A DNA stretch of 21,772 nt from a virus. Location: IMG/VR virus record IMGVR_UViG_3300008220_000092, positions 1-21,772 of that record, one strand, 5' to 3'. A program made the position numbers and the translations under genes. Shown here piece by piece: positions 2,209 to 19,919 of the stretch (within the stretch, counting starts at the first letter, position 1; each line of letters starts with the position of its first letter). The notes beneath the pieces were generated by a model that saw only the letters and a list, made by a program, of their open reading frames with translations, made no database searches and was not told the DNA's origin.

Positions 2209-2728
2209 AGAATTTATGGACCACTTAAGGGAGAGAGAAGGTTATAAGTCTGAGGTGTACTTAGATACTTCCAATAGACCCACTGTAGGTGTAGGACATC
2301 TTTTAACAGCTGAGGAGATAAAAAAGTATCCTGTAGGTACTACTATAGATAAGGAGCAGCTAGCTCTATGGTTGGAAATGGACTCTAGCGTGGCATATAA
2401 TGCTGGATTAGCTCAAGCAAAGGAAGCTGGCATTTCAGACCAGGGTATGATTGAAGCCTTAGCATCTGTAAACTATCAGCTAGGAAGATCCTGGGGCACA
2501 AAGAAGACTAAGTTCCCCAAGGCATGGAAAGCCATTAAGGATGGGGACTATATAGAGGCTGTGAAGCAAATAAAGGAGAATAGCTCTGGTGGAAAAAGTG
2601 ATTGGTATGATGAAACACCTACTAGGGTAGAAGATTTTGCAAAGGCATTAAATGCTTATGGTAAGAAAGTTAAACCACAAGATTATGCACTACAACAAAT
2701 GATAAATGAAGACAACACCTTTGCATAA
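2192..2728 (+). CDS. T4-type lysozyme / endolysin
   Basis: This 178-residue muramidase is predicted to cut the glycan bonds of peptidoglycan during lysis or DNA entry. The catalytic arrangement of the T4 lysozyme family is intact: E16, eight residues, D25, five residues, T31, followed by VGVGH (32-36). The rest of the domain is present, including a conserved-looking SVNYQLGRSWG segment (about 92-102) and a W-D-TPTR-type end (about 136-148). There is no signal peptide or signal-anchor helix, so release would depend on a holin unless the enzyme is carried in the virion. The gene sits among packaging genes rather than with the holin-like gene at 15734. Its stop overlaps the next start by one base. 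Confidence 0.9.
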   Translation: MATPTKEFMDHLREREGYKSEVYLDTSNRPTVGVGHLLTAEEIKKYPVGTTIDKEQLALWLEMDSSVAYNAGLAQAKEAGISDQGMIEALASVNYQLGRSWGTKKTKFPKAWKAIKDGDYIEAVKQIKENSSGGKSDWYDETPTRVEDFAKALNAYGKKVKPQDYALQQMINEDNTFA

Positions 2729-3441
2729 TGGAAAAAATTGATGCTAATGCTTTTGCTATGATGCAGCATGCTACAGCTGATAAGACTGCAGTATCGCTAA
2801 ATGGTAGTAAGTCAAGATTGAAGAGTGAGGATTTACACAACACCTTGATGGCTGCTGGCTTTACCCCTGTTCTAGGGAATCTGGCAGATGCTGCAGATGC
2901 GTTATTATATGCTGCAGAAGGGGAGTTTGGCAATGCAGCTTTATCTCTTACAGCTATGATCCCATTTATTGGGCAGGCAGTTTCAGCAAAGAGAGCTATA
3001 AAGGCAGCAAAAAAAGCCGGTGATGAGATAGTTGCTATATATAGGGGTACCAATTGGCATCCGGCAAGAAAGAAGGTAGGTGAATCGGTATTGGACACAG
3101 GGGAAGCGATGGTTAAGGATGGAAAATTTGTTGGAGGTAAGTACTCACGCTTTAATCCTGGTACATCTAGATATGATCTTCCAGAAGGAACTATATGGGG
3201 GAGTAAGAGCAAAAAAGAGGCTATGGAGTGGGGAGCGTCCCAAGTGGACGACATTAGTGATAACTCTAATTATATTCTAAAGTTTGAGATACCTCAGTCA
3301 GAATTATCTCGACTTAAGCCAGTGTTTGATAGGGGCAGTACAAACATTGGTATACCTGGTGGGCTAGATAAAAAGTGGCTTACCAAAGCTGAAAAGGTTA
3401 CTGAGGATATGTATATGGATTTAAAGTATGGCAAACATTAA
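2728..3441 (+). CDS. Pretoxin-like protein with possible ADP-ribosyltransferase-like C-terminal domain
   Basis: This 237-residue protein has two parts. Residues about 36-97 read like the hydrophobic pretoxin segment of polymorphic toxins: GFTPVLGNLADAADALLYAA (44-63), then AALSLTAMIPFIGQAVSAKR (70-89) and a lysine-rich helix. Residues 100-237 form a compact alpha/beta domain starting IYRGTNW (104-110), with TIWGSKSKKEAMEWG (155-169), YILKFEIPQSEL (182-193) and GIPGGLDKKWL (208-218). The order R106, S159/S161 and a late acidic residue (E222 or E226) resembles the R-S-E pattern of ADP-ribosyltransferases, but the final glutamate motif is not clear, so the fold is an inference. No immunity gene is evident beside it. 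It overlaps large terminase by 14 bases. It could be an injected effector, a virion protein or a host-modifying enzyme. Confidence 0.5.
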   Translation: MEKIDANAFAMMQHATADKTAVSLNGSKSRLKSEDLHNTLMAAGFTPVLGNLADAADALLYAAEGEFGNAALSLTAMIPFIGQAVSAKRAIKAAKKAGDEIVAIYRGTNWHPARKKVGESVLDTGEAMVKDGKFVGGKYSRFNPGTSRYDLPEGTIWGSKSKKEAMEWGASQVDDISDNSNYILKFEIPQSELSRLKPVFDRGSTNIGIPGGLDKKWLTKAEKVTEDMYMDLKYGKH

Positions 3442-4984
3442 TACTAGAAATGTATCACAAGCAGAAGAAGAACTCAAACTTGCAAGGGAGGACATTATAG
3501 CCTATGGTAAGTTATTTCTTCCAGATGATTTTATGCGCTCTGAAACGCCTTTCTTTCATTATCAGGTGGCAGATGTCGTTAATGACCTTTCAGTTAGACA
3601 ACTTGCGGTCATACTACCCCGTGGCCATGGCAAGACTGTACTCACTAAGTGTAGCATACTGCATGATTTTTGCTTTACTACAGAACCACTATTTTATGGT
3701 TGGGTCGCTGCATCTAGCAAGATTAGTGTTCCTAACTTAGACTATATAAAATATCACTTGGAATATAACGAAAAGTTGCGGTATTATTTCGGTGATTTAA
3801 AAGGGAGAAAATGGACAGAAGATGATATTGAACTTAAAAATGGTACCAAGCTTATTAGTAAGTCGAACTTGTCAGGGATACGAGGTGGCGCTAAACTACA
3901 CAAGAGATACGATCTCATTGTGCTGGACGATTTTGAGGATGAGAATAATACCGTTACGCCTGAGTCTAGAGCTAAAATCTCGAACCTTGTTACGGCTGTT
4001 GTGTTTCCTGCTCTTGAACCTGGCACTGGTCGCCTTAGGATTAATGGTACTCCCGTTCACTTTGATAGCTTCATTAATAACATCCTGGTTAACCATGATA
4101 GGGCGAAATCTGAAGGCTCGGATTTCAGCTGGAAAGTGATTACACATAAAGCTATACAATCTGATGGACAACCTATATGGCCTGATTGGTTTGGCCATAA
4201 GGAGATGGAGAGAAAGAAGAAATTTTATACTGACTCTGGACAACCGCAGAAGTTCTATCAAGAGTATATGATGGAAGTTCAAAGTACTGAGGATGCAATC
4301 TTCACCAGAGATCATATTAAGTACTGGGAGGGAGATTTTATACATGAAAATGAAACAGGGATATCTTATATACATACAACAGATGGTGACGTTAAGCCAG
4401 TCAATATTTTTACGGGTGTTGACCCCGCTACTGATTCTGCTCGTAGGGATAGTGACTTCAGCGTTCTACTTACTATTGGTGTGTGCCCTGATAATAATAT
4501 ATATGTGCTTAACTATGTACGCAAGCGCAGCTTGCCTGTTCTCGGGATACCAGGAGATCATAAAAAAGGAATCGTTGATCACATCTTTGAGCTTAATAAC
4601 ATCTATCACCCTTCCCTTTTTACAATCGAAGAGACTACGATGTCTAGGCCGATTTTTCAAGCGCTTATGGCAGAAATGCGTAGGCGTAACGATTTCACGG
4701 TTAAGTACGCTGCTGAAAAACCAGGTAATAGAATGTCGAAGCGTGACAGGATACAAGAAATACTTGCGCAAAGATTTTCAGTGGGTGCGGTACACCTTAA
4801 GAAAGATATGTTTGACCTTCAAAGAGAAATTATAACTTTTGGTCCTAGAATGGGCCATGATGATACTATTGACGCTTTAGCTTATGCATGTAAGTATGGC
4901 TATCCTTCTAAGGATCTTAGTCAAGATAAGAAGGGTAACTATTATAAGAAGAAACCACAAGCTAAGAATTGGGTCACAGCATAA
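3428..4984 (+). CDS. terL: Terminase large subunit (packaging ATPase and nuclease)
   Basis: This 518-residue motor pumps DNA into the prohead and cuts it. The N-terminal ATPase has a Walker A motif, LPRGHGKT (63-70), and a Walker B motif, LIVLDD (163-168), followed by E170. The C-terminal RNase H-like nuclease has its first catalytic aspartate in FTGVDPATD (D332) and the late acidic motif DDTIDALAYA (D478, D479, D482). The length is normal for the family. The start is taken as the ATG inside the end of the pretoxin-like gene; no strong ribosome binding site is seen, so coupling is likely. Arginine codons are mixed (11 CGN of 27 by hand count), unlike the following portal gene. Confidence 0.95.
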   Translation: MANINTRNVSQAEEELKLAREDIIAYGKLFLPDDFMRSETPFFHYQVADVVNDLSVRQLAVILPRGHGKTVLTKCSILHDFCFTTEPLFYGWVAASSKISVPNLDYIKYHLEYNEKLRYYFGDLKGRKWTEDDIELKNGTKLISKSNLSGIRGGAKLHKRYDLIVLDDFEDENNTVTPESRAKISNLVTAVVFPALEPGTGRLRINGTPVHFDSFINNILVNHDRAKSEGSDFSWKVITHKAIQSDGQPIWPDWFGHKEMERKKKFYTDSGQPQKFYQEYMMEVQSTEDAIFTRDHIKYWEGDFIHENETGISYIHTTDGDVKPVNIFTGVDPATDSARRDSDFSVLLTIGVCPDNNIYVLNYVRKRSLPVLGIPGDHKKGIVDHIFELNNIYHPSLFTIEETTMSRPIFQALMAEMRRRNDFTVKYAAEKPGNRMSKRDRIQEILAQRFSVGAVHLKKDMFDLQREIITFGPRMGHDDTIDALAYACKYGYPSKDLSQDKKGNYYKKKPQAKNWVTA

Positions 4985-4994
4985 GGAATAAAAA

Positions 4995-7292
4995 ATGGCA
5001 AAGAATAAAAAAGCAGATCAAGTAAGACAGTTATACAATATGTGTAGCAATACCACTAGAACTCAGTGGCAAAAGATTAACCAGATGGGTTATGAGTTTG
5101 CTCATGATGATCAAATTAGCCAGGCTGATAAAGCAAGCTTAGAAGAACAGGGTATGCCTACATTTACTATTAATAGGATACTGCCTGTAGTAGAGATGTT
5201 AAACTTCTATGCTACAGCTAATAACCCTAGATGGCAAGCTATAGGGGTAGAGGGAAGTGATTCTGCTGTTGCTGCTGTATATTCTGATCTATCTGACTAT
5301 GTATGGCATAACTCAAATGGCGCTACTTTATATGCTAATGCTATTAATGACTGTATCACAAAGTCTATAGGTTATCTGTTAATATCAGTTAATCAAGATG
5401 CAGACAATGGCCTTGGAGAGGTTGTAGTTCAACAGCCTGAACCATTTGACATATTTATAGATCCTAAGAGTAGAGATATGCTATTTAGAGATGCTGCTTA
5501 TATAATGGTAAGAAAGGTCCTACCTAAAAACCATCTTATCAAACTATTTCCTGATGCAAAAAGAAAGATAGCAAATGCTAGTAGCGATGACCAGTGGAGT
5601 AGAACATATTCACAGAGGCCTACCAATGATGCAAGCCAAAAGCTATTCACCTATAATGATGACACAGATGGGGATGATGCTCTTACTGCTATAGGAGAGC
5701 AGGATGAGCTTATAGAGTTTTTTGAAGTGTATGAAAAGATTAAGATGCCATATATGAGTGTCTTCTATAGAATACCACCAAACCCTCAGCAACTTGAACA
5801 AATCAAGAAGCAGGTAGAAGTAAAGATGAAAGAAATGGCTGCTGAGATGCAAGTGGAATTGTTAGAGCAAGAAAAGAAGATGCAGGAAGCTGTACAAAAG
5901 GGTGAGATGATACCAGAGAGGTATGAACTTGAAATGAAGAAGGCTCAGGAAATGATGCAGCAGCAGTTACAATCTGCAGAGCAAGAATACATGAGTGAGT
6001 TACAATCTGAAGCTTCCAAGATCGAGAATAAAATAGTTACAGAGAAAGAATATAAGATACTTATAAAAGATCCTCAGATACAGAAGAATATAGTAGATGC
6101 TGTTAGGTTCTTTAATGATAGAATAAAGCAGACTTGCGTTGCAGGCGATAAGCTATTGTATGAAAAGGTATTGCCAGATACTATAAAAGACTATCCACTT
6201 ATTCCATTTCACTATAAATGGACAGGCACTCCTTATCCAATGTCAGCTGTATCGCCACTTATTGGAAAGCAGAGAGAGATAAACAAATCCCATCAGATCA
6301 TGGTACATAATGCTTCATTAGGATCAAGTTTAAGGTGGATGTATGAGGAAGGATCAATAGATGCAGAGGTCTGGGAGAAATACTCCTCGAGCCCAGGTGC
6401 TTTGCTGCCTGTAAGGCCTGGAGTAGAGCCGCCTACATCTGTTATACCAGCACCATTATCAAATGCTTTCTTCCAGGTTGTACAAGAGGGTAAGGCTGAT
6501 ATGGAATACTTAGCTGGTATTTATAGCTCTATGATGGGTGATAGCGCAAATGCAGGGGAAACATATAGAGGTATGTTGGCATTGGATGAATATGGTACTA
6601 GACGTATTAAGCAATGGATGACTACATCTATAGAACCAGCTTTAAAGCAGACAGGTACAATTATTATGCAATATTCCCAGTCTACTTATACAGCTTATAA
6701 AAGATTTAGAATAGTACAGCCCAGCGCTCTACAGGAGCAAAAGGAACAAGAAATTAACATACCAATCTATAACGATATGGGTGAAGCTATAGGTAAGTCT
6801 ATGGATGTAGAAGCAGCCAAGTTTGATGTTAGAGTTATACAAGGGTCTACAATGCCAGTTAATAGATGGGCATACCTAGAAGAGCTTAAATCATTACTGC
6901 AAATGGGCGTAGTAGATGATATAGCTGTGTTAGCAGAAACCGATATAAAGAACAAGGAGAACATTGCGAAAAGAAAATCTCTGTACTCACAACTGCAAGG
7001 ACAAATACAACAACTATCCGAAAATCTTGAAGATAAAGAAGGCACTATTGAGACACTTGAACGTCAATTGGTCCAAGCGGGTATTAAAAACAAAGTCATG
7101 CAGGCAAGTGTTGAGATAAACAAAGAAAAGGAAGCAGTGAAATCTCAGATAGATAAAGAGTATGTAGAAACAGAGGGAAAACAGAAGTTACTACGTAATG
7201 TTATGTCTAACAATGTTGATGCTCAGCAACAAAAAGCAGCAAATATGTTAGAAAGTGTAAAAAATAACTTGCAAGCTAATAATAAAGAGTAG
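4995..7292 (+). CDS. Portal protein, P22-type
   Basis: This 765-residue protein forms the ring at the packaging vertex through which DNA enters and leaves and to which the tail attaches. The length and the N-terminal pattern fit P22-like podovirus portals: FTINRILPVVEMLNFYATAN near 55-75, then a KSIGYLLISV strand near 118-128 and FDIFIDPKSRD. Residues about 261-350 form a long, charged, methionine- and glutamine-rich coiled coil. The final 110 residues form another coiled coil (SQLQGQIQQLSENLEDKEG and onward), comparable to the helical barrel of large portals. Arginine is almost always AGA or AGG (24 of 27 by hand count). It follows the large terminase by 10 bases. Confidence 0.9.
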   Translation: MAKNKKADQVRQLYNMCSNTTRTQWQKINQMGYEFAHDDQISQADKASLEEQGMPTFTINRILPVVEMLNFYATANNPRWQAIGVEGSDSAVAAVYSDLSDYVWHNSNGATLYANAINDCITKSIGYLLISVNQDADNGLGEVVVQQPEPFDIFIDPKSRDMLFRDAAYIMVRKVLPKNHLIKLFPDAKRKIANASSDDQWSRTYSQRPTNDASQKLFTYNDDTDGDDALTAIGEQDELIEFFEVYEKIKMPYMSVFYRIPPNPQQLEQIKKQVEVKMKEMAAEMQVELLEQEKKMQEAVQKGEMIPERYELEMKKAQEMMQQQLQSAEQEYMSELQSEASKIENKIVTEKEYKILIKDPQIQKNIVDAVRFFNDRIKQTCVAGDKLLYEKVLPDTIKDYPLIPFHYKWTGTPYPMSAVSPLIGKQREINKSHQIMVHNASLGSSLRWMYEEGSIDAEVWEKYSSSPGALLPVRPGVEPPTSVIPAPLSNAFFQVVQEGKADMEYLAGIYSSMMGDSANAGETYRGMLALDEYGTRRIKQWMTTSIEPALKQTGTIIMQYSQSTYTAYKRFRIVQPSALQEQKEQEINIPIYNDMGEAIGKSMDVEAAKFDVRVIQGSTMPVNRWAYLEELKSLLQMGVVDDIAVLAETDIKNKENIAKRKSLYSQLQGQIQQLSENLEDKEGTIETLERQLVQAGIKNKVMQASVEINKEKEAVKSQIDKEYVETEGKQKLLRNVMSNNVDAQQQKAANMLESVKNNLQANNKE

Positions 7293-7331
7293 TAACTTAC
7301 ACAGAATTTTATTAACCATAAAGGAGAAATA

Positions 7332-8234
7332 ATGGCAGAAGATAATAAAGGTAACTCCGAAATAGGGATGCAAGAAGACTCTTTTGAGTCAGCAGAAGGT
7401 GCATCCAATACGGACTCCTCAGCATTCTTCGACCAACTCGAACACGAGGTAAATGGTGGAATAATCGAACACACTGAGGCAACCCAAAGTCAATCAAGTG
7501 GCTCCGAACAGGTAACCCACACAACACAGGACGATGGCTCCAATAACGTGAACCAGTCAGCCGACAGCACAGACTGGAAAAAACGCTACGAAGATAGTAG
7601 CAGAGAAGCTGTCCGCTTATCAGATCAGTATCGAGAGGTTGAACCTTTCGTACCTGTTTTGCAAGCGATGAAAAATGATAGTGGATTAGTAGAACATGTT
7701 AAAGACTATTTGGTCAATGGCGGTAAGCCAGATAAGACTATTCAAGAACAGTTAAATCTTGATGAAGACTTTATCTTTGATCAACAAGAGGCTATAACAG
7801 ATCCTCAATCTGATAGTGCAAAACTTTATAATGCACACATCGATAAAGTGGTCCAAGGTAGAGTGGGTCAAGTACTCCAAGCTGAAAAGCAAAGAGCGCA
7901 ACAGATCCAAGCTACTAGAAACCGTGCTATTGAAGAGCAAGCATTTAAGAAAGAGCATAACTTGTCAGATGCAGACTTTGAAGATTTCAAGGCTCGAGCT
8001 CAACAGCATACCATGTCGCTTAATGACGTGAACTTCCTGTTGAACCGAGACAGAAACAACGAAAATGTTGCGAACTCTACAAAGAAGGATATGTTAAACC
8101 AAATGAAAAATGTCAGGAATATGCCTACATCCGCATCAGGAGCAAACAGTCAAGGCGCACAGAGATCACAGTCAGATGAAATATTTGATGCGATAAGCGG
8201 CTTTGATGAAAGTGTTGATAACCTGTTTGGATAG
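7332..8234 (+). CDS. Capsid scaffolding protein (probable)
   Basis: A 300-residue acidic protein lying between portal and major capsid genes, the usual place for scaffold. The N-terminal 90 residues are disordered and rich in S, E, T and Q. The middle and C-terminal parts are helical and charged (QVLQAEKQRAQQIQATRNRA, about 178-197). A serine- and glutamine-rich linker (about 260-280) leads to a short acidic C-terminal helix. Such proteins guide shell assembly and leave before or during packaging. No protease domain is visible, so it is not an obvious protease-scaffold fusion. AAGGAG at 7320-7325 precedes the ATG. The assignment rests on position and composition, not on a conserved motif. Confidence 0.75.
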   Translation: MAEDNKGNSEIGMQEDSFESAEGASNTDSSAFFDQLEHEVNGGIIEHTEATQSQSSGSEQVTHTTQDDGSNNVNQSADSTDWKKRYEDSSREAVRLSDQYREVEPFVPVLQAMKNDSGLVEHVKDYLVNGGKPDKTIQEQLNLDEDFIFDQQEAITDPQSDSAKLYNAHIDKVVQGRVGQVLQAEKQRAQQIQATRNRAIEEQAFKKEHNLSDADFEDFKARAQQHTMSLNDVNFLLNRDRNNENVANSTKKDMLNQMKNVRNMPTSASGANSQGAQRSQSDEIFDAISGFDESVDNLFG

Positions 8235-8243
8235 ACTTATATA
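8215..8243 (+). promoter_or_regulatory. Candidate promoter before the major capsid gene
   Basis: TTGATA (8215-8220), five of six matches to the -35 consensus, is followed after 17 bases by TATATA (8238-8243), four of six matches to the -10. It overlaps the end of the scaffold gene and would start a transcript about 35 bases before the capsid ATG, a sensible place to boost capsid expression. In AT-rich DNA this match may be accidental. Confidence 0.35.
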
Positions 8244-8285
8244 GGTTTATTTGCTCTATCTAAGCATTAAATAGGAGATAGACAA

Positions 8286-9794
8286 ATGTCTGATATTCTA
8301 AATGTAACTGGAGACAGTTACATTAATGAGCCAACAGAAGCATACGGTCCGGATACGGCCACTGGCGCGCTTCGGAGACAATACAACTTCGGTAGTAAAG
8401 TCTCTGAACTCTCGCTATCACAAGATCCGTTCTTCCGCTTTGTTTCTATGGTGGCCAAAAAACCAACAGATGATCCGACTTTCAAGTTTACTGAAAGACG
8501 TGAATCATATTTAAGACGCTATGTATATGTTAATTTACATGGTGATGGAGACTCCACAACAGATAGCGAGGCTGGTGGTAATAGCAATACTGGTATAGCA
8601 ATTGCTACAGATGATGATGCTGATGGCGATAATATTTATATCGAAGTCGGTACAGATTGGCTATACGAAGGTAATAAGAGAAAGGCTTACGGGCAAACTG
8701 CTACCGCTATTGGCGCTAGTGGAACTGCACCTAAGTTCTTATTTCCTGGACAGCTACTTAAAGTACCTGTCTGCAGTGCAGAAAATGCATCTAATGATCA
8801 ATCGACAAATGACTATATGATTGTCAAGATTGATGAATTGATGAAAGGAGCTGCAACTAACTACCAAAAGCTACAGTGTAGTGTAGTTAAGGGTGTTACT
8901 GCTGGCTCATTCTTTATGGGTATGCCAGATGCTGCCCTTCTTAAAGGATCTGCTGAAGCTCTTGAACCGTATAGATGCTATGTATCTGGTACCGCATTTG
9001 CTGCTGGTACTGGGTATCCAGAGACCTGGCAAGATCAGCCATTCTCAGTCGCATCAGGCCAGACTCAAATCTGGAAAACCTCATGCGTAATGAATAATAC
9101 TGATCGTGCTACTGTACTAAAGTATGAAGGTAATGAATGGGCTCGTATCTGGAAGCAGAAACTTATCGAGCATAAATGGGATATCGAAAATAGTTTGTTA
9201 TTCGGAACCCAGAATGCTACCTATGGTACTACTCAAGGTGCTGTAGACTTCATTACACAGTATGGTAATGTCTTTGATCTTTCTAATCTGACAACCAAAA
9301 CTCAAGATAGCTTTCTTGATGACATGTCAGCCTTGTTAGATCCACGATATAATAATGCTAAGTCAACTATCTTCTTCTGCTCTACAGAAGTTTATAACTG
9401 GCTACATAAGTTATCTGGATACTTTTCTAACAATATTGCTAATGTCTACCCAGGAGATGGGCCAACTACAACCTCTTTAGGGCGTGCTGACTTTAGCACA
9501 TCAGGTAAGAAGAAAGTGTTTGGTGTTGACATTACGACTATATCTACAGTATATGGAGATATGAACATTGCACGAAATGTGCATCTTGATGGTACCAAAG
9601 TGAAAATCATTGGTATCAACATGAAATATTGTTCTTATCGCCCTCTTGTAGGTAATGGTTTAAATCGTGATACTGGAATCTACGTAGGAGTTCAGACTTT
9701 ACAGAACTCAGGTGTCGACCGTAGAGTGGATCAAATCTTAACCGAAGCTGGAATGGAATGGAGTTGTCCTGAAACTCATTCTATCTGGTCATAA
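8286..9794 (+). CDS. Major capsid protein (probable)
   Basis: This 502-residue protein follows portal and scaffold and is the expected shell subunit, probably of the HK97 fold. An N-terminal arm leads to a beta-strand region with repeated FRFV, FKFTER and YVYVNLH segments (about 49-84). A glycine/aspartate-rich loop follows (about 85-115), and later a long helix with WARIWKQKLIEHKWDIENSL (about 285-304) followed by a GTQ/TTQ segment typical of capsid proteins. The GVDITTI and IIGINMKY strands near the end fit the axial domain. Arginine codons favour CGN (12 of 18 by hand count), consistent with high expression. AGGAG at 8272-8276 precedes the ATG. The exact capsid family was not determined. 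Confidence 0.8.
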   Translation: MSDILNVTGDSYINEPTEAYGPDTATGALRRQYNFGSKVSELSLSQDPFFRFVSMVAKKPTDDPTFKFTERRESYLRRYVYVNLHGDGDSTTDSEAGGNSNTGIAIATDDDADGDNIYIEVGTDWLYEGNKRKAYGQTATAIGASGTAPKFLFPGQLLKVPVCSAENASNDQSTNDYMIVKIDELMKGAATNYQKLQCSVVKGVTAGSFFMGMPDAALLKGSAEALEPYRCYVSGTAFAAGTGYPETWQDQPFSVASGQTQIWKTSCVMNNTDRATVLKYEGNEWARIWKQKLIEHKWDIENSLLFGTQNATYGTTQGAVDFITQYGNVFDLSNLTTKTQDSFLDDMSALLDPRYNNAKSTIFFCSTEVYNWLHKLSGYFSNNIANVYPGDGPTTTSLGRADFSTSGKKKVFGVDITTISTVYGDMNIARNVHLDGTKVKIIGINMKYCSYRPLVGNGLNRDTGIYVGVQTLQNSGVDRRVDQILTEAGMEWSCPETHSIWS

Positions 9795-9805
9795 GGAGGT
9801 ATATT

Positions 9806-10000
9806 ATGGCAAATCCATTATATGGACAAAATAAGGCAGATGGCTTTCTTGATACTTTAGCAGATGCTGATGATAAAGTCGCAGCTGCTGGTACAGGTGG
9901 TACTGCTGCAGGTAATGCTGCTGGTGTGGCTACTAAAGTAATTCCAATCACTATAGCTGGTGTGGAATACTTTTTAGCATTGTATCCAGACAATGATTAA
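9806..10000 (+). CDS. Small head-associated protein (hypothetical)
   Basis: A 64-residue protein directly after the major capsid gene. It starts MANPLYGQNKADGFLD, has a central alanine/glycine/threonine-rich stretch (about 32-47), and ends with a beta-like hydrophobic segment (KVIPITIAGVEYFLALYPDND). A near-consensus ribosome binding site, AAGGAGG (9793-9799), overlaps the capsid stop six bases before the ATG, so strong translation at capsid-like levels is likely. Position, size and expression suggest a head decoration or minor capsid protein, but no family motif proves this. The gene ends shortly before a large hairpin. Confidence 0.7.
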   Translation: MANPLYGQNKADGFLDTLADADDKVAAAGTGGTAAGNAAGVATKVIPITIAGVEYFLALYPDND

Positions 10001-10017
10001 TCTGTTAAACTAGAATG

Positions 10018-10065
10018 GGCCTGCTCCTCCCCTGGGAAGATTTCTCTCCCCAGGGGGGGTAGGCC
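10018..10065 (+). terminator. Strong GC-rich hairpin after the capsid genes
   Basis: GGCCT (10018-10022) pairs with AGGCC (10061-10065). Inside, the 11-base arm 10026-10036 pairs with 10049-10059 (one G-U pair), and AGA/TCT can close the top around a TTTC loop. The hairpin is far more GC-rich than its surroundings. No T-run follows, so it is more likely a weak terminator, RNA processing site or 3' stabiliser of the capsid message than a full intrinsic terminator. Confidence 0.7.
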
Positions 10066-10082
10066 ACCTTAGATAGGAAGAT

Positions 10083-11717
10083 ATGGCAACCTTTACAGAT
10101 CAAGTAAAAGCAATCACTTCACTAACTGATGCTACAAACTTTGGTACATACTTAACGGATGGATTAAAAGATGTAGTCAACAGAGTTATACAGCTTAGAC
10201 CTGAAAAGGCTGGGCTTTTTGCAGTTAGTACAACATTAGAGGATGGGAATGGAGCCGATCTAGGAGGTGGCTCAGTTCTTAATGTGGTTAGGGAGAATGG
10301 TACTGCTGGTACAGACTATTTAAAGCTTACAGAAGTAACAAGTTCTAATACTAACGATAACTTTACCTATACAGCACATGGCTTAAGTGATGGAGATACA
10401 GTAAGGTTGAGTGGCTTTACAGGGTCAACTGGGGTGAATGGTATTACAGGTAAGGTAGAAAATAAAACTAATGATACCTTTGAGGTGGCAAATGTTGTAG
10501 TTGATGTTGATGGTACAGATGGAATTGTGGAAAGACTCTCTGTTGACAATTGGGTAACAGCCCAAAGAATTTCCCCAGAAGAGAGGTTCTTATCTAATGA
10601 CTCTACCAGTTTATACTATAGATCCAAGTATCATCCAGCCTTTTGGGAACTAGATGGTAAGACATATATACATCCAACACCTGGCTCTAGTGGTGATAGA
10701 GCTTCTATACATCATATTAAATATTCAACTGTAGCTGGAAGTGAAGATACAGGTGAGATAGTTGGCTTTCCTGATAGCTTTGAACATCTTATGGTCCTTT
10801 ATGCAGGCTCACAAGCACTATTAGAATACTTAGGAGACTTAGAGGACTCATTGCCTGCAGCTCTTGCGCTCCCAGCAACGCCGATATCCCCTGTATTAAG
10901 TGATTCTTCTATTAGCTTTACAGAAACTACTACATATACCGCTCCAGTCATTTCATTGCCAACATTTCCATCTTTAACATGGAACATGCCTACTGCGCCT
11001 GTGACACCAGCACTTGCCGATGCCAGTATTGATGCTTTAGGAACAGCACCTATATATACAGCTCCTGTAATTTCTCCTGATTTTGCAGAGATACAAACAT
11101 GGATAGATGATGATGATCCAGAGTTAGCACAATCTGCACAAGGAAAGGTAACCTTGGAGATAAATAAGTATCAAGCAGATATACAGAGTGCTCTTAACGA
11201 TTTTAACGAGCTTAATACAGAATATCAAGCAGATATGCAAGTTAAGACACAAGAGGCTCAACTACTATCTAAAGATGATGACCAGAAGATACAGAAATAT
11301 GGGGCAGAGTTACAAGAATATACAGCTAGTATAACAAAATTAGTACAAGAAAACCAAAGCAAGGTAGCAGAATGGCAAACAGAGTCAAGTGTAATAGTTC
11401 AGAAATATGGAGCTGAACTAACCAATAGTGTGAATGAGTTTAATAAGACACAGGTAGAGTACCAAGGTGAGCTACAGAAAGCTATACAAGAAGCTCAACT
11501 TATCTCCGCTGATGATGCTCAAAAGATACAGAAATATGGTGGAGAGGTACAGGATTATTCAGCCAATGTACAGGCGGTTGTAGCAGAGTTTAATTCTGCA
11601 GTACAAAAAGAAGGTACAAAATATCAATGGGCCCATGGGAGATATGTAGCTTTAAGACAACAATATAATGATGCTTTCGGACTATTAGCTCCGCCTAAGC
11701 AAAAAGGAGATAAATAA
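10083..11717 (+). CDS. Connector-like virion protein with coiled-coil tail
   Basis: This 544-residue protein has several parts. Residues 1-80 (DQVKAITSLTDATNFGTYLT and onward) and about 160-255 (FWELDGKTYIHPTP; FEHLMVLYAGSQALLEYLGD) resemble head-tail adaptor proteins. Between them, residues about 90-145 form a small beta domain (AHGLSDGDTVRLSGFTG, NGITGKVENKTNDTFEV) of the kind found inserted in many phage virion proteins. Residues 262-350 are a P, S and T-rich linker in which YTAPVIS occurs twice (285-291, 325-331). Residues about 355-535 are a coiled coil with QKYG-A/G-E at 404, 440 and 483 and a larger repeat with a 79-residue offset (380 and 459). It is probably a head-tail joining protein with a rod-like extension. 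Confidence 0.65.
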   Translation: MATFTDQVKAITSLTDATNFGTYLTDGLKDVVNRVIQLRPEKAGLFAVSTTLEDGNGADLGGGSVLNVVRENGTAGTDYLKLTEVTSSNTNDNFTYTAHGLSDGDTVRLSGFTGSTGVNGITGKVENKTNDTFEVANVVVDVDGTDGIVERLSVDNWVTAQRISPEERFLSNDSTSLYYRSKYHPAFWELDGKTYIHPTPGSSGDRASIHHIKYSTVAGSEDTGEIVGFPDSFEHLMVLYAGSQALLEYLGDLEDSLPAALALPATPISPVLSDSSISFTETTTYTAPVISLPTFPSLTWNMPTAPVTPALADASIDALGTAPIYTAPVISPDFAEIQTWIDDDDPELAQSAQGKVTLEINKYQADIQSALNDFNELNTEYQADMQVKTQEAQLLSKDDDQKIQKYGAELQEYTASITKLVQENQSKVAEWQTESSVIVQKYGAELTNSVNEFNKTQVEYQGELQKAIQEAQLISADDAQKIQKYGGEVQDYSANVQAVVAEFNSAVQKEGTKYQWAHGRYVALRQQYNDAFGLLAPPKQKGDK

Positions 11718-13872: not shown

Positions 13873-14342
13873 TGTCATACCCAAAGATCAAAATATCGGA
13901 TGACTCTGGGGAAACAGTAGGCATTACTGACAACCGTCTAGATGTTAACGTGGCTGGGGCTACTATAACGACAGGCGATATTGATGTAAATTTAGATTCG
14001 GCAACAGACAGTGTAGCTGTGACAGGCACAGTAACTGTAGACTCCCTTGATACCCAACCTGCAACCTTTAATACTGTAGACGGCAGTGAAATTACCACAG
14101 CAGATAATACTAATGCAGCTGCTTTTGCTAGTGTTGGCACTAATGTGAAAGAGGTGCAAATACAATCTTTATCTACTAACGTAGATAGTTTCTATATAAC
14201 TGATACAAGTGATAACCCTTGTGCAGAACTAACCCCAGCAGGAACATTATCCCTACCTATAAGTAACCTTAACTTACTGAAATATAAGAAGTTAACTAAT
14301 GATGGTACTAGTCAAAAACTCTTAATTACGGCATTAAGCTAA
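13872..14342 (+). CDS. Beta-rich tail or fibre-associated protein
   Basis: A 156-residue protein composed almost entirely of short beta-type stretches rich in T, V, D and S (ATITTGDIDVNLDSATDSVA; VAVTGTVTVDSLDTQP). A longer beta segment follows (EVQIQSLSTNVDSFYITDTS, about 92-111), and the end is SQKLLITALS. Similar threonine- and valine-rich proteins are common among phage tail collar and fibre accessory proteins. Overlapping stop/start junctions (TAATG) on both sides show it is one link in a translationally coupled chain. No receptor-binding motif is recognised. Confidence 0.6.
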   Translation: MSYPKIKISDDSGETVGITDNRLDVNVAGATITTGDIDVNLDSATDSVAVTGTVTVDSLDTQPATFNTVDGSEITTADNTNAAAFASVGTNVKEVQIQSLSTNVDSFYITDTSDNPCAELTPAGTLSLPISNLNLLKYKKLTNDGTSQKLLITALS

Positions 14343-15418
14343 TGGGAAGAATAGCACTTAAACAAGCTGGTATACCTAACCATAAGCTTCAGAAGAACCT
14401 TGATGTCAATGGGTTTGTTATAAATGATGGGCTTGCTGGTGAAGGCTTATATCTTAAGGATTGGGATGGCAATCCTCAAATGCGAGCAGGTTTAAATATC
14501 TCAAATCCTGCTCATACACTAACTGTATATGATGCGGACTATCCTTATATACAGTTTATAAACTCTCATACTGGTTCAGGGCAGAATGATGGACTTGTTA
14601 TAGGTATGCAAAAAAATGCTGCTGCATACATCACATTAAGAGAGTCTTCACCACTAATATTTAGAACAAGTGATACAGATAGGCTTACTATAGAGAAAGG
14701 TGGCAATGTAGGTATTGGTGTTGCAGACCCTGATACTACATTAGAGGTATGGAGTGCATCCACACAGCTCAAGCTATCTAACAGCGATACAAGTTATGCA
14801 ACAATAGGTGTTATTTCTGGTAGTAGACTATCTATTGCAACAGCAGAAAGTGGTAATATTACTATTGATACAGCTGGTGGTAATATAGCACTTAAGTCTG
14901 GTGGTGGTACTTATACTCCAACGGCAGATAGCGATGCTGCAACCAAAAAGTATGTAGATGATAAAGTTCCTGATACAAGTAAGTTTTATTATGATATCAG
15001 GATAGCTAATTATTATGCAACAGCAACAGCAAACTACTTGCCTCTTGCAGGGTATGTTACCGAAAAGACTTCTACTACGAGCAATAATGAATATCTTGCT
15101 ATGATTGCACCCTTTGATGGAACGTTGGAAGAAGTTGTGTGGAGAAGTGAAATGTCTCAAAATGGTGCAACAAGCCTGCGGATACTCGAGGCTTCCGATG
15201 AAACAGAAATTCCAGGCACAACCATATATAGAAAAGATTATACTTTGGGACTTACACAAGCTAATACAGTAGTAACTGTTGATATGTCGTCTCCCAGTGT
15301 TGGAACTGACCCTCCTACATTTACAAAAGGGAAATTATATGTAGTCTATCTAAGGCATCCCAATGCACCATATGATACAAATGTAACATTAACTTTTAAG
15401 TGGGATGTAACGAGTTAA
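14342..15418 (+). CDS. Tail fibre or collar protein
   Basis: This 358-residue protein has a fibre-like build. An N-terminal attachment-like part (LKQAGIPNHKLQKNLDVNGF, about 6-25) is followed by beta repeats and the motif NVGIGVADPDTTLEV (about 120-134). Another beta stretch (SGNITIDTAGGNIALKSGGG) leads to the junction motif DSDAATKKYVDDKV (about 196-209), common in phage fibres before a C-terminal domain. The last 145 residues look like a compact beta-sandwich head (EYLAMIAPFDGTLEEVVWRS, and a KLYVVYLRH strand), which could bind a receptor. It probably forms trimers, as fibres do. Confidence 0.75.
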   Translation: MGRIALKQAGIPNHKLQKNLDVNGFVINDGLAGEGLYLKDWDGNPQMRAGLNISNPAHTLTVYDADYPYIQFINSHTGSGQNDGLVIGMQKNAAAYITLRESSPLIFRTSDTDRLTIEKGGNVGIGVADPDTTLEVWSASTQLKLSNSDTSYATIGVISGSRLSIATAESGNITIDTAGGNIALKSGGGTYTPTADSDAATKKYVDDKVPDTSKFYYDIRIANYYATATANYLPLAGYVTEKTSTTSNNEYLAMIAPFDGTLEEVVWRSEMSQNGATSLRILEASDETEIPGTTIYRKDYTLGLTQANTVVTVDMSSPSVGTDPPTFTKGKLYVVYLRHPNAPYDTNVTLTFKWDVTS

Positions 15419-15419
15419 T

Positions 15420-15734
15420 ATGAAGATATATAGACATCCAGCAGCAACATCTTACTCAACCAATTGGGCTATATGGAGCAAAGGTTTAATACCAACCTCT
15501 TTAGTTGCAGATCTTACGGAACCGTCGAAACCTTACTTTACGACTAAAGACACTGGTAGTGGGATAGAAGTAGAAGGAGAGTGGTCTACATGGTCCTCTG
15601 CCGAATCTAGCTATATCACAATGTGTAATGCCTCTTCAGCAGATGATTATCTTGGTGGCTCAGGAAGGCCACTTGTTATCGCTCTCAATGTAATCACTCA
15701 CAGGATAACTGATGGAATTATTACGGCAAGATAA
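15420..15734 (+). CDS. 104-residue virion or fibre-associated protein
   Basis: It begins MKIYRHPAATSYSTNWAIWS and is rich in aromatic and small polar residues, with a tryptophan/serine segment EGEWSTWSSAESSYITMCNA (about 53-72). The end is a beta-like ALNVITHRITDGIITAR. Starting one base after the fibre gene stop and overlapping the holin-like start (TAATG), it is certainly co-transcribed with both. It could be the tip or a chaperone of the preceding fibre, as small genes directly after fibre genes often are, but no family is recognised. Confidence 0.6.
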   Translation: MKIYRHPAATSYSTNWAIWSKGLIPTSLVADLTEPSKPYFTTKDTGSGIEVEGEWSTWSSAESSYITMCNASSADDYLGGSGRPLVIALNVITHRITDGIITAR

Positions 15735-15892
15735 TGGATATTATAGACACACTTAAAGTAGAATCAATAGGTCTTGGTGGTTGGTGGCTCTCTATGAGTT
15801 CCTGGCTACCTGATATGGTTAGTCTGTTTGTTGGACTCGCCACGCTTATCTACCTAGTTATAAAGATAGGCAAAGAACTTAGAACTAAATAG
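15734..15892 (+). CDS. Holin-like small membrane protein
   Basis: A 52-residue protein. It has a hydrophobic N-terminal half (GLGGWWLSMSSWLPD, about 13-27) leading into one strong membrane helix (MVSLFVGLATLIYLVIKI, about 28-45) and a short basic tail (GKELRTK). Size, helix position and basic C-terminus fit small phage holins, which form membrane pores that let endolysin reach the cell wall. The matching lysozyme is about 13 kb upstream at 2192. The start overlaps the previous stop (TAATG), and the stop overlaps the ribosome binding site of the next gene. Any other small membrane protein remains possible. Confidence 0.65.
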   Translation: MDIIDTLKVESIGLGGWWLSMSSWLPDMVSLFVGLATLIYLVIKIGKELRTK

Positions 15893-15901
15893 GAGAGAAC
15901 T

Positions 15902-16807
15902 ATGTTATGTATCAAATGTGGATCAAATCAGACCATCAAGTATGGTATACGCACTAATAAAGATGGTAAGGATATACAGAGGCACTTTTGCAACAGTTGT
16001 AGAAGGGAATTTTCTACCAGTCTAGAAGCTTCTAAGAGTGCATCACAGGTAAGAAGGGCTATAATAACACCTGATAAGCATTTTCCATATGAGGATAAAC
16101 CAGCTATTAATGCTCTGGTAAAGGCTATAAGTCTAGTAAAACCAAGCATTTACGTGGATTTAGGGGATACTGGGGAATGGGAATCTGTATCAATGTGGAA
16201 GTGGAAGAGAAAGAAACAGCCACCGCTAGAACACATTATACCAGATATAGAGAAAGAGATTAAGGCTGTCAACCGTGGAATGGATGTAATAGATGAGGCT
16301 CTAGATAGTGTAGGATGTGATGAGCGTCACTTTACAGAAGGTAACCATGACAACTGGCTAAATAGGTTTGTAGAGAGATACCCCTATTTGCCCCAATATA
16401 GGCTCAAAAACGCGATAAAACTGGAAGAGCGAGGTTATACCTACCATCCATTCGGAAAGTACCTTAAAATAGGCAAGCTACACTTCTATCATGGACATCA
16501 GTATGGAGGTATGTATCATACTGCAAACCACTTAAGAAAGCTTGGATGCAATGTTATGTATGGGCATTGGCACGATCTGCAACATATGACAGCCACCCAT
16601 ATGGATGGACCTAAAGGAGCCTGGAGTATAGGATGTTTAAAGGATATGAGTACAGAATCTAATGCCTGGCTTGATAATAGGAACCATAACTGGGCACATG
16701 CATTTGCTATAATAGACTTCTTTGGAGATGACTTTACAGTGGATGTAGTACAGATAATAGATGGCAAGTGCTCTATATGGGGCAATATGATAAATGGTAA
16801 CGAATAA
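15902..16807 (+). CDS. Metallophosphoesterase with N-terminal zinc ribbon
   Basis: A 301-residue two-domain enzyme. Residues 1-40 form a four-cysteine zinc ribbon (C3, C6, C30, C33; LCIKCGS and FCNSCRREF), similar in layout to the zinc ribbons of IS1-type transposition proteins. Residues about 50-285 carry calcineurin-like phosphoesterase metal motifs in the right order: D58-x-H60, G88-D89, G147-N148-H149-D150, H197-G-H199 and G221-H222-W-H224. All expected metal ligands are present, so an active dinuclear metal phosphatase or nuclease is likely. The substrate is unknown. The gene lies in the tail module between holin-like and nozzle-like genes. AGGAGAG at 15891-15897 precedes the ATG. DNA or RNA end processing, guided by the ribbon, is an inference. 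Confidence 0.85.
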   Translation: MLCIKCGSNQTIKYGIRTNKDGKDIQRHFCNSCRREFSTSLEASKSASQVRRAIITPDKHFPYEDKPAINALVKAISLVKPSIYVDLGDTGEWESVSMWKWKRKKQPPLEHIIPDIEKEIKAVNRGMDVIDEALDSVGCDERHFTEGNHDNWLNRFVERYPYLPQYRLKNAIKLEERGYTYHPFGKYLKIGKLHFYHGHQYGGMYHTANHLRKLGCNVMYGHWHDLQHMTATHMDGPKGAWSIGCLKDMSTESNAWLDNRNHNWAHAFAIIDFFGDDFTVDVVQIIDGKCSIWGNMINGNE

Positions 16808-16818
16808 AGGAGAATAAC

Positions 16819-16974
16819 ATGAGTGCACTAATCGCATGGGTAACAAAAACAATCCTAACTGAAGCTGTTCTTAAGCAGATAGTTATGATACTAGGAGATT
16901 ATCTTGTAGAGAGTTCAGCTAATAAGCTTGATGACAAACTATGGGCTAAAGTAAAGAAAACACTGGTTAAGTAA
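16819..16974 (+). CDS. 51-residue amphipathic helical protein
   Basis: Preceded by AAGGAG (16807-16812), this frame encodes a 51-residue protein. A first moderately hydrophobic helix (ALIAWVTKTILTEAVLKQIV, about 3-22) continues into MILGDYLVES, then a charged basic helix (KLDDKLWAKVKKTLVK). It may lie along a membrane rather than cross it. Its stop overlaps the start of the large structural gene (TAATG). Because it sits one gene away from the holin-like protein, a lysis accessory role is conceivable, but no family is recognised. Confidence 0.6.
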   Translation: MSALIAWVTKTILTEAVLKQIVMILGDYLVESSANKLDDKLWAKVKKTLVK

Positions 16975-19919
16975 TGCCTAAGAAGTCATTAGTTATAAAT
17001 GGGTTCCTTGGAGGTATCAATGAGGATGCAGACTTAACAGATATACAATCTGAGGATCAAGGTGGTAAAAATGAACTTACAGCCTGTGATGATGGTATAT
17101 GCAATATGCCTGGCAAGATTCGTGGGAAGACTGTAGTTTCTGCAGCTGGAGAAGGCGCCCTTGGATTAAGTGGTACTGCTGATGCTAGCGAAGATCTGTT
17201 AATATATGGTACCGACTATTATAGAAATCAAGGAGTATATAAAGTTGGTAGTAATGTTGAATGGTCTGGAAAGAATACCGTTAAAAGACCTAATAGTACT
17301 GCGCTTGCAACTGGAAGTAGTAATGTATCACAGCAGACCAGCTCACTGGGACTAAAGGCTTCTGGCACATCAACAGGGGAGGACTTAGACTATGTATTTT
17401 TGGGCAAGGCCGCTACCCAGAGTAATGGAGACTGTCTTATTGCTAACAGCACTGCTGCTCTTACTCAAAAGACCGACCGTCTTATTGCATGGAACTATGA
17501 CGAGTATAATGATGGAAAAATCCCTAATCCACCGTTTGGTACTGAGTTTACATCTCATAAACATTTTGGGTTTATAAGTGATACTGGTTGGACCGTGAGT
17601 TTTTGGGATGAGAGCGCTAGCGCCAATTCCTGGGGTGGTCATACAGCATCCCCTGCAAATGGTAGTTTTATAGGGGCCTACCCAGACACCGGATCTCAAT
17701 CCTATGCAGAATGTGACTATATTAGACTTGGCAGGCGATATATAAATGATTCAAGTTGGAGTAATTATGATCCTGCAATAGTAATAAGAACTGGAAATGG
17801 GCCCACAAATAACCCAACAGATAATATACCTGGACTATATGATACAGGCATTAATGTTGCAGATAAGGATATATATATAGAGATATCCATCAATGGCAAC
17901 AATTCTGGAAATAATGATGCACATGAATGGGCCGAGCAGGGCACTAGTGGATTTACGAGGCTGACCATTGTTCTTGACTCGCATTTTGCAGATAGTATTG
18001 TAAATTACAATCCTGATTTGGTTGGAGACAGTTATTGTAAGATATATAGGAAAACTAGAGCTGAACTCGATTCATTACAGGCAATAGATAGAAGCAATGG
18101 AATCGGTCATGCAAATATTGCTAAAGCAAGGATTAAAATACCTTATGATAGTGCTATATTTACTGGGGACAATTTTAACGGTGCTAACATTGCAAATATT
18201 TGGATAATTGCTGAGGGTGCAGACATGAGCATAACAGATAACACTATAACTGGTGGAACTACTAGATGGTTATTGAATCTCTATGAGCTTTCATTTATGG
18301 GAAGTACGCAGCCAGGATGGGCCAACACAAATACCAAATTTATACAGACTAAGGTAACTAATGGTATAGAGTCTTTACTACGGCCATATGATGGGTATCT
18401 ATCATTAGTTTCAGACAATACAATGAACCTGGAAATAGCGAAACCCAGTGATGCTCATATAGGGAAGTTATATTACCAGGAAGCAGACGATAATGGGGTT
18501 GCCAGTGGATCTCTATTTTTACTAGCAGAGGTAGATACGTCAAAAGGAGTAAAGAGTATATTATCTACTTATTATAGGGATTGGGATGATAATGGTACTG
18601 ATCCCGACAGTGTGAAACTTGTTATGTCAGACCCTCCTATATCTTCAACATATAAGCTTGAGGCTGGATATCCAACAGATACAGAGTCTATTAACGCACA
18701 ATGGGACCATGCTGTTGCTATTGGCAGACAGGTATATATAGGTAGTGTTGTTAAAGAGGGTGAAGACTTAGCATCTACAGCCGTATCAGTTAATGCAGGA
18801 ACAACACCAGATTTATATCCCACTTTTAGTACTGTAGGCTATTCACTGGATACAGCTACTTATCCATATCCTCAATCAATACATGTAGATGTGACATCTG
18901 CAGCTGATCCTTCTATATTTCAGTATAGTTTTGATGGTGGTACAAGTTGGGATGTTGCTACTATAACAATGAATGAATCATTACAAGAACTTGGCAGTTC
19001 AGAAATATATGTGAAGTTTCCAGTTGATACTGGCTATACTGTGGGCGATGAATGGAAAATAGTTATAGAGAAGGAAACTGACCTTATCTTAAAAGGGACC
19101 ATAGGTAAAAAGTATGGCTTCCCAGATCTTAACTATATAGACCTTGAGTTACCAGGATCTGGTATTACAGCTATGATGGCTTCTGGAGATAGATTGTTTG
19201 TCTTCTCTGATGATATGCTTAATATAGTCAATGTAGCTCAAGACTTTGAGTTTCTAGAAGGTTCATTCCAGGGTTATGGTGTTACCAATAAGAAAAGTGT
19301 ATGTAAAGTGTTAGAGGGTTTGGCATTTGTAAATAATACTGGTGTGTACTATTTTGATGGTGCGGAAATGAACTCTTTATCTGACGATCTGATGATGAGT
19401 AGGGCATGGACTAATGGTAGTTCTATAGGCTATTTACCTTCTGAAAAGATAGTGGTTGTTTGGGATTCAGCAAAATTATGGGGATATAGTCTTGTTACTA
19501 AGGCTTGGGTAACAAAGAGTATAGCAGCAAATGCTATACCAAGTACGGCTATAGCCTATTATGGTAATGAAGCACATTTTCTCACCGCTTCAGCAATGAA
19601 TAAACTTGCTTTAAGTAGTAGTACACTTGACCCTAGCATAGAAACTGGCAAGATAATATGTGGTGATCCAAGCAGGAGAAAGAAGTTTAAAAAGGTGTAT
19701 ATAAGTTCAGCTTTTGGTGCCGGGACATTAACTCTACATTGGAGTATAGATGGAGCTGGATATAATGATAGCCAAGCTATAACAACTGGAGATAATTTTG
19801 CAGTGACTATAAATGCTAATGGTAAGAATATACGGTTTAAACTAGTAGGTAGTGGCCTGTCAGACGATTATAGCATAGGTGAGATATCCTTAATATATAG
19901 AGATAAAACAGTTAAATAA
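16974..19919 (+). CDS. Large tail nozzle or stabilisation-like protein
   Basis: This 981-residue protein begins KKSLVINGFLGGINEDADL (3-21), followed by CNMPGKIRGK (about 44-53), an opening typical of podovirus stabilisation or nozzle proteins such as P22 gp10. Residues about 725-865 contain propeller-like repeats (MMASGDRLFVFSDDMLNIVN; GLAFVNNTGVYYFDG; KIVVVWDSAKLWGYSLVTKA), and a beta domain (TLTLHWSIDGAGY) closes the protein. Residues about 125-470 look like an inserted beta-rich domain with aromatic, glycine and asparagine-rich sequence (SFWDESASANSWGGH), perhaps surface-exposed. It probably forms the lower part of the short tail and holds fibres. Assignment rests on pattern and position. 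Confidence 0.65.
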   Translation: MPKKSLVINGFLGGINEDADLTDIQSEDQGGKNELTACDDGICNMPGKIRGKTVVSAAGEGALGLSGTADASEDLLIYGTDYYRNQGVYKVGSNVEWSGKNTVKRPNSTALATGSSNVSQQTSSLGLKASGTSTGEDLDYVFLGKAATQSNGDCLIANSTAALTQKTDRLIAWNYDEYNDGKIPNPPFGTEFTSHKHFGFISDTGWTVSFWDESASANSWGGHTASPANGSFIGAYPDTGSQSYAECDYIRLGRRYINDSSWSNYDPAIVIRTGNGPTNNPTDNIPGLYDTGINVADKDIYIEISINGNNSGNNDAHEWAEQGTSGFTRLTIVLDSHFADSIVNYNPDLVGDSYCKIYRKTRAELDSLQAIDRSNGIGHANIAKARIKIPYDSAIFTGDNFNGANIANIWIIAEGADMSITDNTITGGTTRWLLNLYELSFMGSTQPGWANTNTKFIQTKVTNGIESLLRPYDGYLSLVSDNTMNLEIAKPSDAHIGKLYYQEADDNGVASGSLFLLAEVDTSKGVKSILSTYYRDWDDNGTDPDSVKLVMSDPPISSTYKLEAGYPTDTESINAQWDHAVAIGRQVYIGSVVKEGEDLASTAVSVNAGTTPDLYPTFSTVGYSLDTATYPYPQSIHVDVTSAADPSIFQYSFDGGTSWDVATITMNESLQELGSSEIYVKFPVDTGYTVGDEWKIVIEKETDLILKGTIGKKYGFPDLNYIDLELPGSGITAMMASGDRLFVFSDDMLNIVNVAQDFEFLEGSFQGYGVTNKKSVCKVLEGLAFVNNTGVYYFDGAEMNSLSDDLMMSRAWTNGSSIGYLPSEKIVVVWDSAKLWGYSLVTKAWVTKSIAANAIPSTAIAYYGNEAHFLTASAMNKLALSSSTLDPSIETGKIICGDPSRRKKFKKVYISSAFGAGTLTLHWSIDGAGYNDSQAITTGDNFAVTINANGKNIRFKLVGSGLSDDYSIGEISLIYRDKTVK

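Follow-up and report, generated by a model that had tools for sequence, protein, structure and literature searches.

Several phage metallophosphoesterases (MPEs) close to the enzyme considered here have been described, and they point in different directions. Gp48 of mycobacteriophage A10ZJ24, as presented in the accessible text of PMC12287305, has a phosphodiesterase activity that is lost in the D10G mutant, degrades linear, plasmid, and genomic DNA (degradation was not seen with mutant proteins), and is toxic to the host in a manner that requires D10, D41, and H175 and is lost in D10G, D41V, and H175D; the same text reports a role for it in counter-defence. Of Bxb1 Gp47, a homologous MPE from cluster A, the same source states that it functions as a recombination directionality factor (RDF) and is devoid of phosphoesterase activity, so membership of the family PHROG_221 does not fix function; the accessible part of a paper on Bxb1 gp47 (PMC5311408) contains nothing on enzyme activity. 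MPEs of jumbo phages have been proposed, in the accessible portion of PMC7824862, to cut signalling nucleotides and to heal RNA ends, and the zinc ribbons and MPEs mentioned there are separate proteins. Among zinc ribbons, those of NrdR are described in the accessible text of PMC12051234 as binding one per half-palindrome.

In this work, we examined a stretch of viral DNA of 21,772 nucleotides (IMG/VR record IMGVR_UViG_3300008220_000092, hereafter the window), in which a gene at 15902–16807 on the plus strand encodes a zinc ribbon followed by an MPE of PHROG_221. We consider five features of this locus established: the full set of active-site residues, membership of PHROG_221, conservation of the ribbon, the tight placement of the gene among structural genes, and more than one gain or loss of the ribbon in the family. 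The parts are known, namely a phage enzyme family and a kind of zinc ribbon, and their combination was not found reported: no account of a ribbon–MPE fusion turned up in the literature searched, whose coverage took in few subscription papers. The locus matters because a counter-defence DNase of the enzyme's family was recently described in mycobacteriophages (accessible text of PMC12287305) and because the family is common in uncultured phages.

A single reading frame encodes both domains

The gene is one open reading frame of 301 residues with an ATG start, preceded by a Shine–Dalgarno-like aggagag read from the sequence at 15891–15897 (+), −11 to −5 from the ATG. Its product divides into a zinc ribbon (residues 1–40, with C3, C6, C30, and C33; 15902–16021, +), a linker (residues 41–50; 16022–16051, +) modelled with a short helix over residues 41–47 at a pLDDT of ~71, and an MPE domain (residues 51–298; 16052–16795, +) recognized by its PHROG_221 match and by fold.

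A mis-called start can be ruled out for the window gene, where no ATG, GTG, or TTG other than the ATG at 15902 precedes the first MPE motif and hence no alternative common start would drop the ribbon. The same is true of five of the 11 ribbon genes, and the other six have at least one later in-frame start codon ahead of the motif. Chance cysteines were rejected as well, the pattern CxxC-x(15–30)-CxxC arising in 7 of 20,000 shuffles of the window protein. The original prediction had named a start codon that removes the ribbon and unconserved cysteines as findings that would speak against a fusion; the window gene offers no such start, the four cysteines are kept in 11/11 ribbon carriers, and the fusion, carried on one frame with its own start codon and ribosome-binding site, is genuine.

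The enzyme domain is divergent, with an intact active site

All five MPE motifs, described as intact in the original prediction, are indeed present on the plus strand (DKH, GDTGE, GNHD, HGH, and GHWH), and nine metal-binding and catalytic residues (D58, H60, D89, E92, N148, H149, H197, H222, and H224) are identical in 77/77 aligned sequences, the alignment omitting one short member (L103) of 78. Motif I, D58-K-H60 (16073–16081), is invariant in 77/77; motif II, G88-D89-x-x-E92 (16163–16177), keeps D89 and E92 in all; motif III, G147-N-H-D150 (16340–16351), keeps G147, N148, and H149 in all, with D in 66 and E in 11 at position 150; motif IV, H197-G-H199 (16490–16498), keeps H197 in all and H199 in 74/77; and motif V, G221-H-W-H224 (16562–16573), keeps H222 and H224 in all. 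Motif II therefore reads GDxxE and not GDxxD, with an invariant glutamate at a position where many MPEs carry the canonical aspartate.

In a profile search, the PHROG_221 'metallo-phosphoesterase' family matches residues 33–293 of the window protein with an E-value of 7.5e-27. General models recognize the branch poorly: Pfam PF00149 (Metallophos) does not match the window protein at E up to 1 and matches 16/77 aligned sequences at E up to 0.01 (L055 reaching 22.4 bits against a cut-off of 21.5), and no NCBIfam MPE model, that of LpxH included, matched at E up to 1. A search of PDB sequences with the single protein gave no match at E up to 10, and a profile search of the PDB gave three chance matches only, to unrelated small proteins. 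Because Pfam recognition is weak while the metal ligands and the fold are intact, the branch is divergent within the MPE superfamily; by motifs and fold, the window enzyme is a divergent member of that superfamily.

The AlphaFold2 model of the full protein (mean pLDDT 92.3, pTM 0.84) finds its closest solved folds, by VIA-align, in PolD DP1 (Z 15.8 over 210 residues) and LpxH (15.2), which are tied, and then in Mre11 (14.3), with the alignments to MPE structures covering residues 45–289 of the model. Foldseek with the full model is led by Mre11, VPS29, and LpxH and lists phage MPEs among the viral predictions. In the comparison with Mre11/SbcD suggested in the original prediction, the fold lies near Mre11, and by VIA-align PolD DP1 and LpxH score a little higher. 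Filing the enzyme under either Mre11/SbcD or LpxH was dropped, the fold being near both and profile support absent, and the predicted fold leaves the substrate undecided.

Membership of PHROG_221 brings in named relatives. A10ZJ24 Gp48 belongs to it (E 2.4e-124) and is also matched directly from the window protein (E 2e-4); another member is Bruns gp50, which is annotated as an RDF. The latter, together with the lack of phosphoesterase activity reported for Bxb1 Gp47 in the accessible text of PMC12287305, would suit a regulator like Gp47 that acts through protein contacts, for example with a recombinase or a replication protein. We consider such a regulator unlikely: active-site residues that are invariant in 77/77 sequences of the branch make a non-catalytic role improbable, and the location of the gene among structural genes also counts against it.

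The ribbon resembles nucleic-acid-binding ribbons

The ribbon has the layout C3-x2-C6 ... C30-x2-C33, and the original prediction had called it a transposase-type ribbon. By sequence, its nearest family is indeed the NCBIfam IS1/IS1595 zinc-binding domain NF050000, although the window protein scores 25.2 bits (E 1.8e-5), below the cut-off of 28, which makes the label borderline. Among ten ribbon-bearing relatives, L005 alone passes that cut-off (30.8), and L055 and L086 pass that of NF048018, an IS256-type model. The Pfam family Zn_ribbon_NrdR gives an E-value of 0.0041 with the window protein, also below its cut-off. Modelled alone, the ribbon is predicted with a pLDDT of ~91 over residues 1–40, and its top five structure matches are NrdR ribbons at modest Z scores of 5.6–6.3 (the best over 44 residues, rmsd 2.2), below which come ribbons of RNA polymerase, RNase P, and Dof proteins; Foldseek with the ribbon alone returned nothing at E up to 0.001. 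The proposed likeness to nucleic-acid-binding ribbons is borne out by both sequence (IS1/IS1595) and fold (NrdR).

Zinc ribbons also mediate protein contacts. The RNase P and RNA polymerase subunits among the ribbon folds below NrdR would fit a phosphodiesterase or phosphatase that acts on small nucleotides or RNA ends, such as a host defence signal or an end in tRNA repair, with a ribbon that contacts RNA or protein, and the roles proposed for jumbo-phage MPEs in the accessible portion of PMC7824862 are of this kind. We regard this reading as rather doubtful, given that the tested relative with activity, A10ZJ24 Gp48, degrades DNA and that a relative in a Friunavirus carries a helix-turn-helix (HTH) domain, which favours DNA.

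Constraint on the ribbon can be read from its relatives. Eight positions, namely the four cysteines, S8, G15, Q26, and R27, do not vary among ten ribbons, which represent four groups. In close pairs (the window with L002 or L003; L030 with L105), the ribbon has a pN/pS of 0.12–0.15, and in more distant pairs, its pN/pS is 0.27–0.44 versus 0.10–0.22 for the enzyme, all of these ratios being rough because synonymous sites of the ribbon are near saturation in every pair but L006/L108. On these comparisons, the ribbon appears to evolve faster than the enzyme, yet under constraint. The faster change in distant pairs and the rare, patchy occurrence of the ribbon (11/204 sequences among the matches listed) would agree with an enzyme that acts as supposed and a ribbon that is an evolutionary passenger without a role; the eight residues kept across four groups and the low ratios in close pairs, even with synonymous sites near saturation, argue against this, and we give a passenger very little probability.

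The ribbon is rare in the family and has come or gone repeatedly

In one scan, 320 stretches of viral contigs encoded a relative of the enzyme. Homologues were counted from the best 80 matches per scan of viral contigs, and three further scans extended the survey to 204 distinct homologous gene sequences; this set skips L082 and L184–L196, and L008, L242, L244, L245, L246, L256, and L332 failed its motif or length filter. The first survey comprised 158 viral contigs, with 24 loci set aside (22 repeats matched by name, the window itself as L081, and a named phage as L082) and L008 dropped for want of a motif match; it held 11 ribbon carriers among the matches listed, and since its contigs amount to 140 distinct gene sequences, counts per 158 include near-copies.

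Searching for other proteins with the same domain order, as the original prediction had proposed, gave 11 carriers of a fused ribbon among the 204 distinct sequences in the matches listed. In the remaining 193/204 (again among the matches listed), the furthest common start lies no more than 27 residues ahead of the first motif, which leaves no room for a ribbon. Ribbonless homologues, which the original prediction had expected to weigh against it, are thus the rule, and because they are, the family does not depend on the ribbon. A natural pair with and without it is formed by the window and L007 (81% identical). A search of viral contigs with the ribbon alone returned three contigs, which belong to the same phage and to two near relatives; two scans of genome contigs gave no confirmed relative, and the plasmid collection gave one weak match over residues 50–264, from Nocardia farcinica.

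The carriers fall into four groups (L001–L005, L006/L108, L030/L105, and L055/L086). On a tree of the enzyme domain, the distribution of the ribbon needs four changes, at least three of them forced by well-supported branches; the tree came from a quick search, with support by SH-aLRT only, of 79 of 157 cores left after reduction at 93% identity, with all 11 ribbon rows kept and one core too short for inclusion. The branching indicates that the ribbon was gained or lost repeatedly. Recombination at the ribbon boundary was considered for L006 and L108, where synonymous differences number ~2/21 in the ribbon and 51.5/147 in the enzyme (Fisher p 0.02); we do not rely on it, as this is one pair chosen post hoc and identities vary along the gene.

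A ribbon can also lie next door. In 20/147 ribbonless loci among the matches listed, the enzyme gene is adjoined or overlapped by a small gene that encodes a four-cysteine protein on its own; 17 of these proteins form one 104-residue family that ends 7–8 nt before the ribbonless enzyme gene (17 loci within the range L087–L103), two have 81 residues, and one has 90. In sequence, these standalone ribbons are of another type than the fused ones, and a single query scan supplied 19 of the 20 loci.

A few loci depart from the common gene form. In L084 (around 3766–4011) and L085 (3490–3735), the enzyme frame lacks an ATG, GTG, or TTG ahead of its first motif, and a small ribbon gene in a different frame overlaps it, so that a non-standard start or a frameshift is possible. 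The enzyme of L030 has a C-terminal extension of ~28 residues that is absent from the other seven aligned ribbon carriers, and L105 is equally long. The enzyme gene occurs in two differing copies, L304 and L313, ~57 kb apart on one contig of 104,488 bases (IMGVR_UViG_3300030451_002683), which is perhaps two joined genomes.

The gene is packed among structural genes

Directly upstream, and ending 9 nt before the enzyme gene, lies a gene for a 52-residue protein with one hydrophobic stretch (15734–15892, +), whose family takes this position in 55/158 loci among the matches listed. Directly downstream, after a gap of 11 nt, is a gene for a 51-residue protein (16819–16974, +), with its family in 21/158 loci among the matches listed, and then one for a 981-residue protein (16974–19919, +), whose family lies no more than five genes from the enzyme in 68/158 loci among the matches listed. 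Pfam at E up to 0.05 gave no family for the 52- or the 981-residue protein, and PHROGs gave nothing for the latter, a relative of which matched weakly; L163, a relative of the 52-residue protein in the same cluster, has one weak PHROGs match, of unknown function. The names holin-like and nozzle-like that the original prediction had given to the neighbours were guesses, backed by no family match.

The placement in a late structural region fares better. A tail-fibre-like gene lies upstream at 14342–15418 (phrog_9942, E 5.6e-8), and further genes upstream on the same strand encode a terminase (phrog_38, E 1.5e-66), a P22-type portal (Pfam E 9.2e-51), an SU10-type major capsid protein (E 1.3e-19), and an SU10-like adaptor (Pfam E 7.9e-4, below cut-off). 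In the IMG/VR relatives surveyed, the enzyme gene likewise lies near structural and lysis-type genes, few of the neighbouring families being nameable. The DNA metabolism genes found by scanning (primase small-subunit-like, AAA_24, DnaB-like, and PDDEXK, some below cut-off) are on the opposite strand. No Rfam family reached its gathering score in the window.

Proximity to lysis-type genes, often those for lysozyme and for small membrane-type proteins, bears on the possibility of an envelope enzyme that acts at lysis in the manner of LpxH. LpxH is tied for the closest fold (Z 15.2 versus 15.8), and a lysozyme-like family lies no more than three genes upstream of the enzyme in 40/158 loci among the matches listed; the window's own lysozyme gene (2192–2728), however, is 13 kb from the enzyme gene, the NCBIfam LpxH model finds no match at E up to 1, and the fused ribbon and the HTH of a relative point to nucleic acid. 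We judge an envelope role highly improbable.

A sister contig of 58,476 bases is the same phage (99.97% identity over 10,871 bases), and the bases at its start are found again 170 bases from the other end, which suggests a complete genome. On it (L194), two adjacent genes at 2971–3624 (−) and 3624–4556 (−) are ThiF/E1-like (Pfam E 3.6e-17) and JAB-like (E 2.3e-4, below cut-off), and a gene ~5 kb off, at 10036–10290 (−), encodes a ThiS/ubiquitin-like protein with GG (E 1.9e-4, just below cut-off); the three may form a phage ubiquitin-like conjugation set. Elsewhere on the sister contig (L193), one reading frame of 3016 residues at 1925–10975 (+) is followed by one of 884 residues, and the two products may be giant proteins of the virion interior or ones that are ejected.

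Proposed function

We propose, with about even confidence, that the gene encodes a two-metal phosphodiesterase of PHROG_221 that is made with the late proteins, most likely cuts DNA, and stays on DNA through its accessory ribbon. The two-metal enzyme would hydrolyse DNA, a substrate suggested by its family; the N-terminal IS1/NrdR-like ribbon, presumed to bind zinc and DNA, would tether the enzyme there; and the enzyme would be produced together with the late proteins, as its position among structural genes suggests. Membership of PHROG_221 hints at a nuclease without proving one, and the end-processing and counter-defence roles that the original prediction raised for this protein are conjectural. 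DNA is the favoured substrate because A10ZJ24 Gp48, of the same family, is a tested DNase and because the Friunavirus relative carries an HTH. Two observations count against DNA: motif I is DxQ in the tested DNase versus DxH in the window protein, and the fold lies no farther from that of LpxH, a lipid A enzyme, than from those of the nucleases.

A more far-reaching reading, which we put forward tentatively and hold possible at well below even chances, is that PHROG_221 consists of phage DNases of modular build, which gain interchangeable DNA-binding heads again and again (an HTH, an IS1/NrdR-type ribbon, or a next-door ribbon), and that, in this uncultured lineage, the enzyme has left early DNA metabolism for the late region. 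There, the ribbon would aim it at specific DNA, for example that of the host or a competitor, or the ends of genomes during packaging or lysis. Natural pairs that differ in the presence of the ribbon, such as the window and L007, allow a direct test of its role and could reveal how a single enzyme core is redirected by phages.

Comparison with known systems

The window protein shares the MPE fold with Mre11/SbcD, PolD DP1, and LpxH (Z 13.3–15.8), and is 10–18% identical to them in structural alignments. With A10ZJ24 Gp48, D29 gp54, and Bruns gp50, it shares the MPE family and the overall layout of the metal motifs. Five other translated actinobacteriophage members have the DxQ motif I of A10ZJ24 Gp48 in place of DxH, and the translated actinobacteriophage members, unlike the window protein, start at the enzyme with no N-terminal domain. 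Their genes lie near primase, thioredoxin/NrdH-type, ribonucleotide reductase (RNR), or helicase genes, varying by record, and in the Autographiviridae and actinobacteriophage records examined, as in phage P8625, the enzyme gene is among or next to DNA metabolism genes.

The PHROG_221 member of the Friunavirus vB_Ab4_Hep4-M, an Acinetobacter phage, resembles the window protein in having an N-terminal domain of DNA-binding type. It is annotated as a 'phosphoestherase with HTH domain', and its first 50 residues match Pfam HTH families with E-values of 3e-5 to 5e-5, just under cut-offs. It differs in carrying an HTH and not a zinc ribbon, in its DxQ motif I, and in the position of its gene, which is flanked by genes for an endonuclease and a dNMP kinase and does not lie among structural genes. 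The similarly long N-terminus of AJO2 gives weak matches to HTH families (best E 0.055), and P8625, IPa-2, and Ulina01 have ~90–100 extra N-terminal residues without an assigned domain. Judged by these profile matches, N-terminal additions recur in PHROG_221, at least two of them apparently of DNA-binding type.

The head itself has its closest parallels outside the family. In sequence and spacing, the ribbon is like those of IS1/IS1595 (NF050000) and IS256-type (NF048018) transposases, whose transposase domain is absent here, and its best fold match is the ribbon of NrdR, whose C-terminal ATP-cone is replaced here by an MPE. Set beside these systems, the ribbon looks like an optional targeting add-on to a known phage enzyme and not like a new kind of system.
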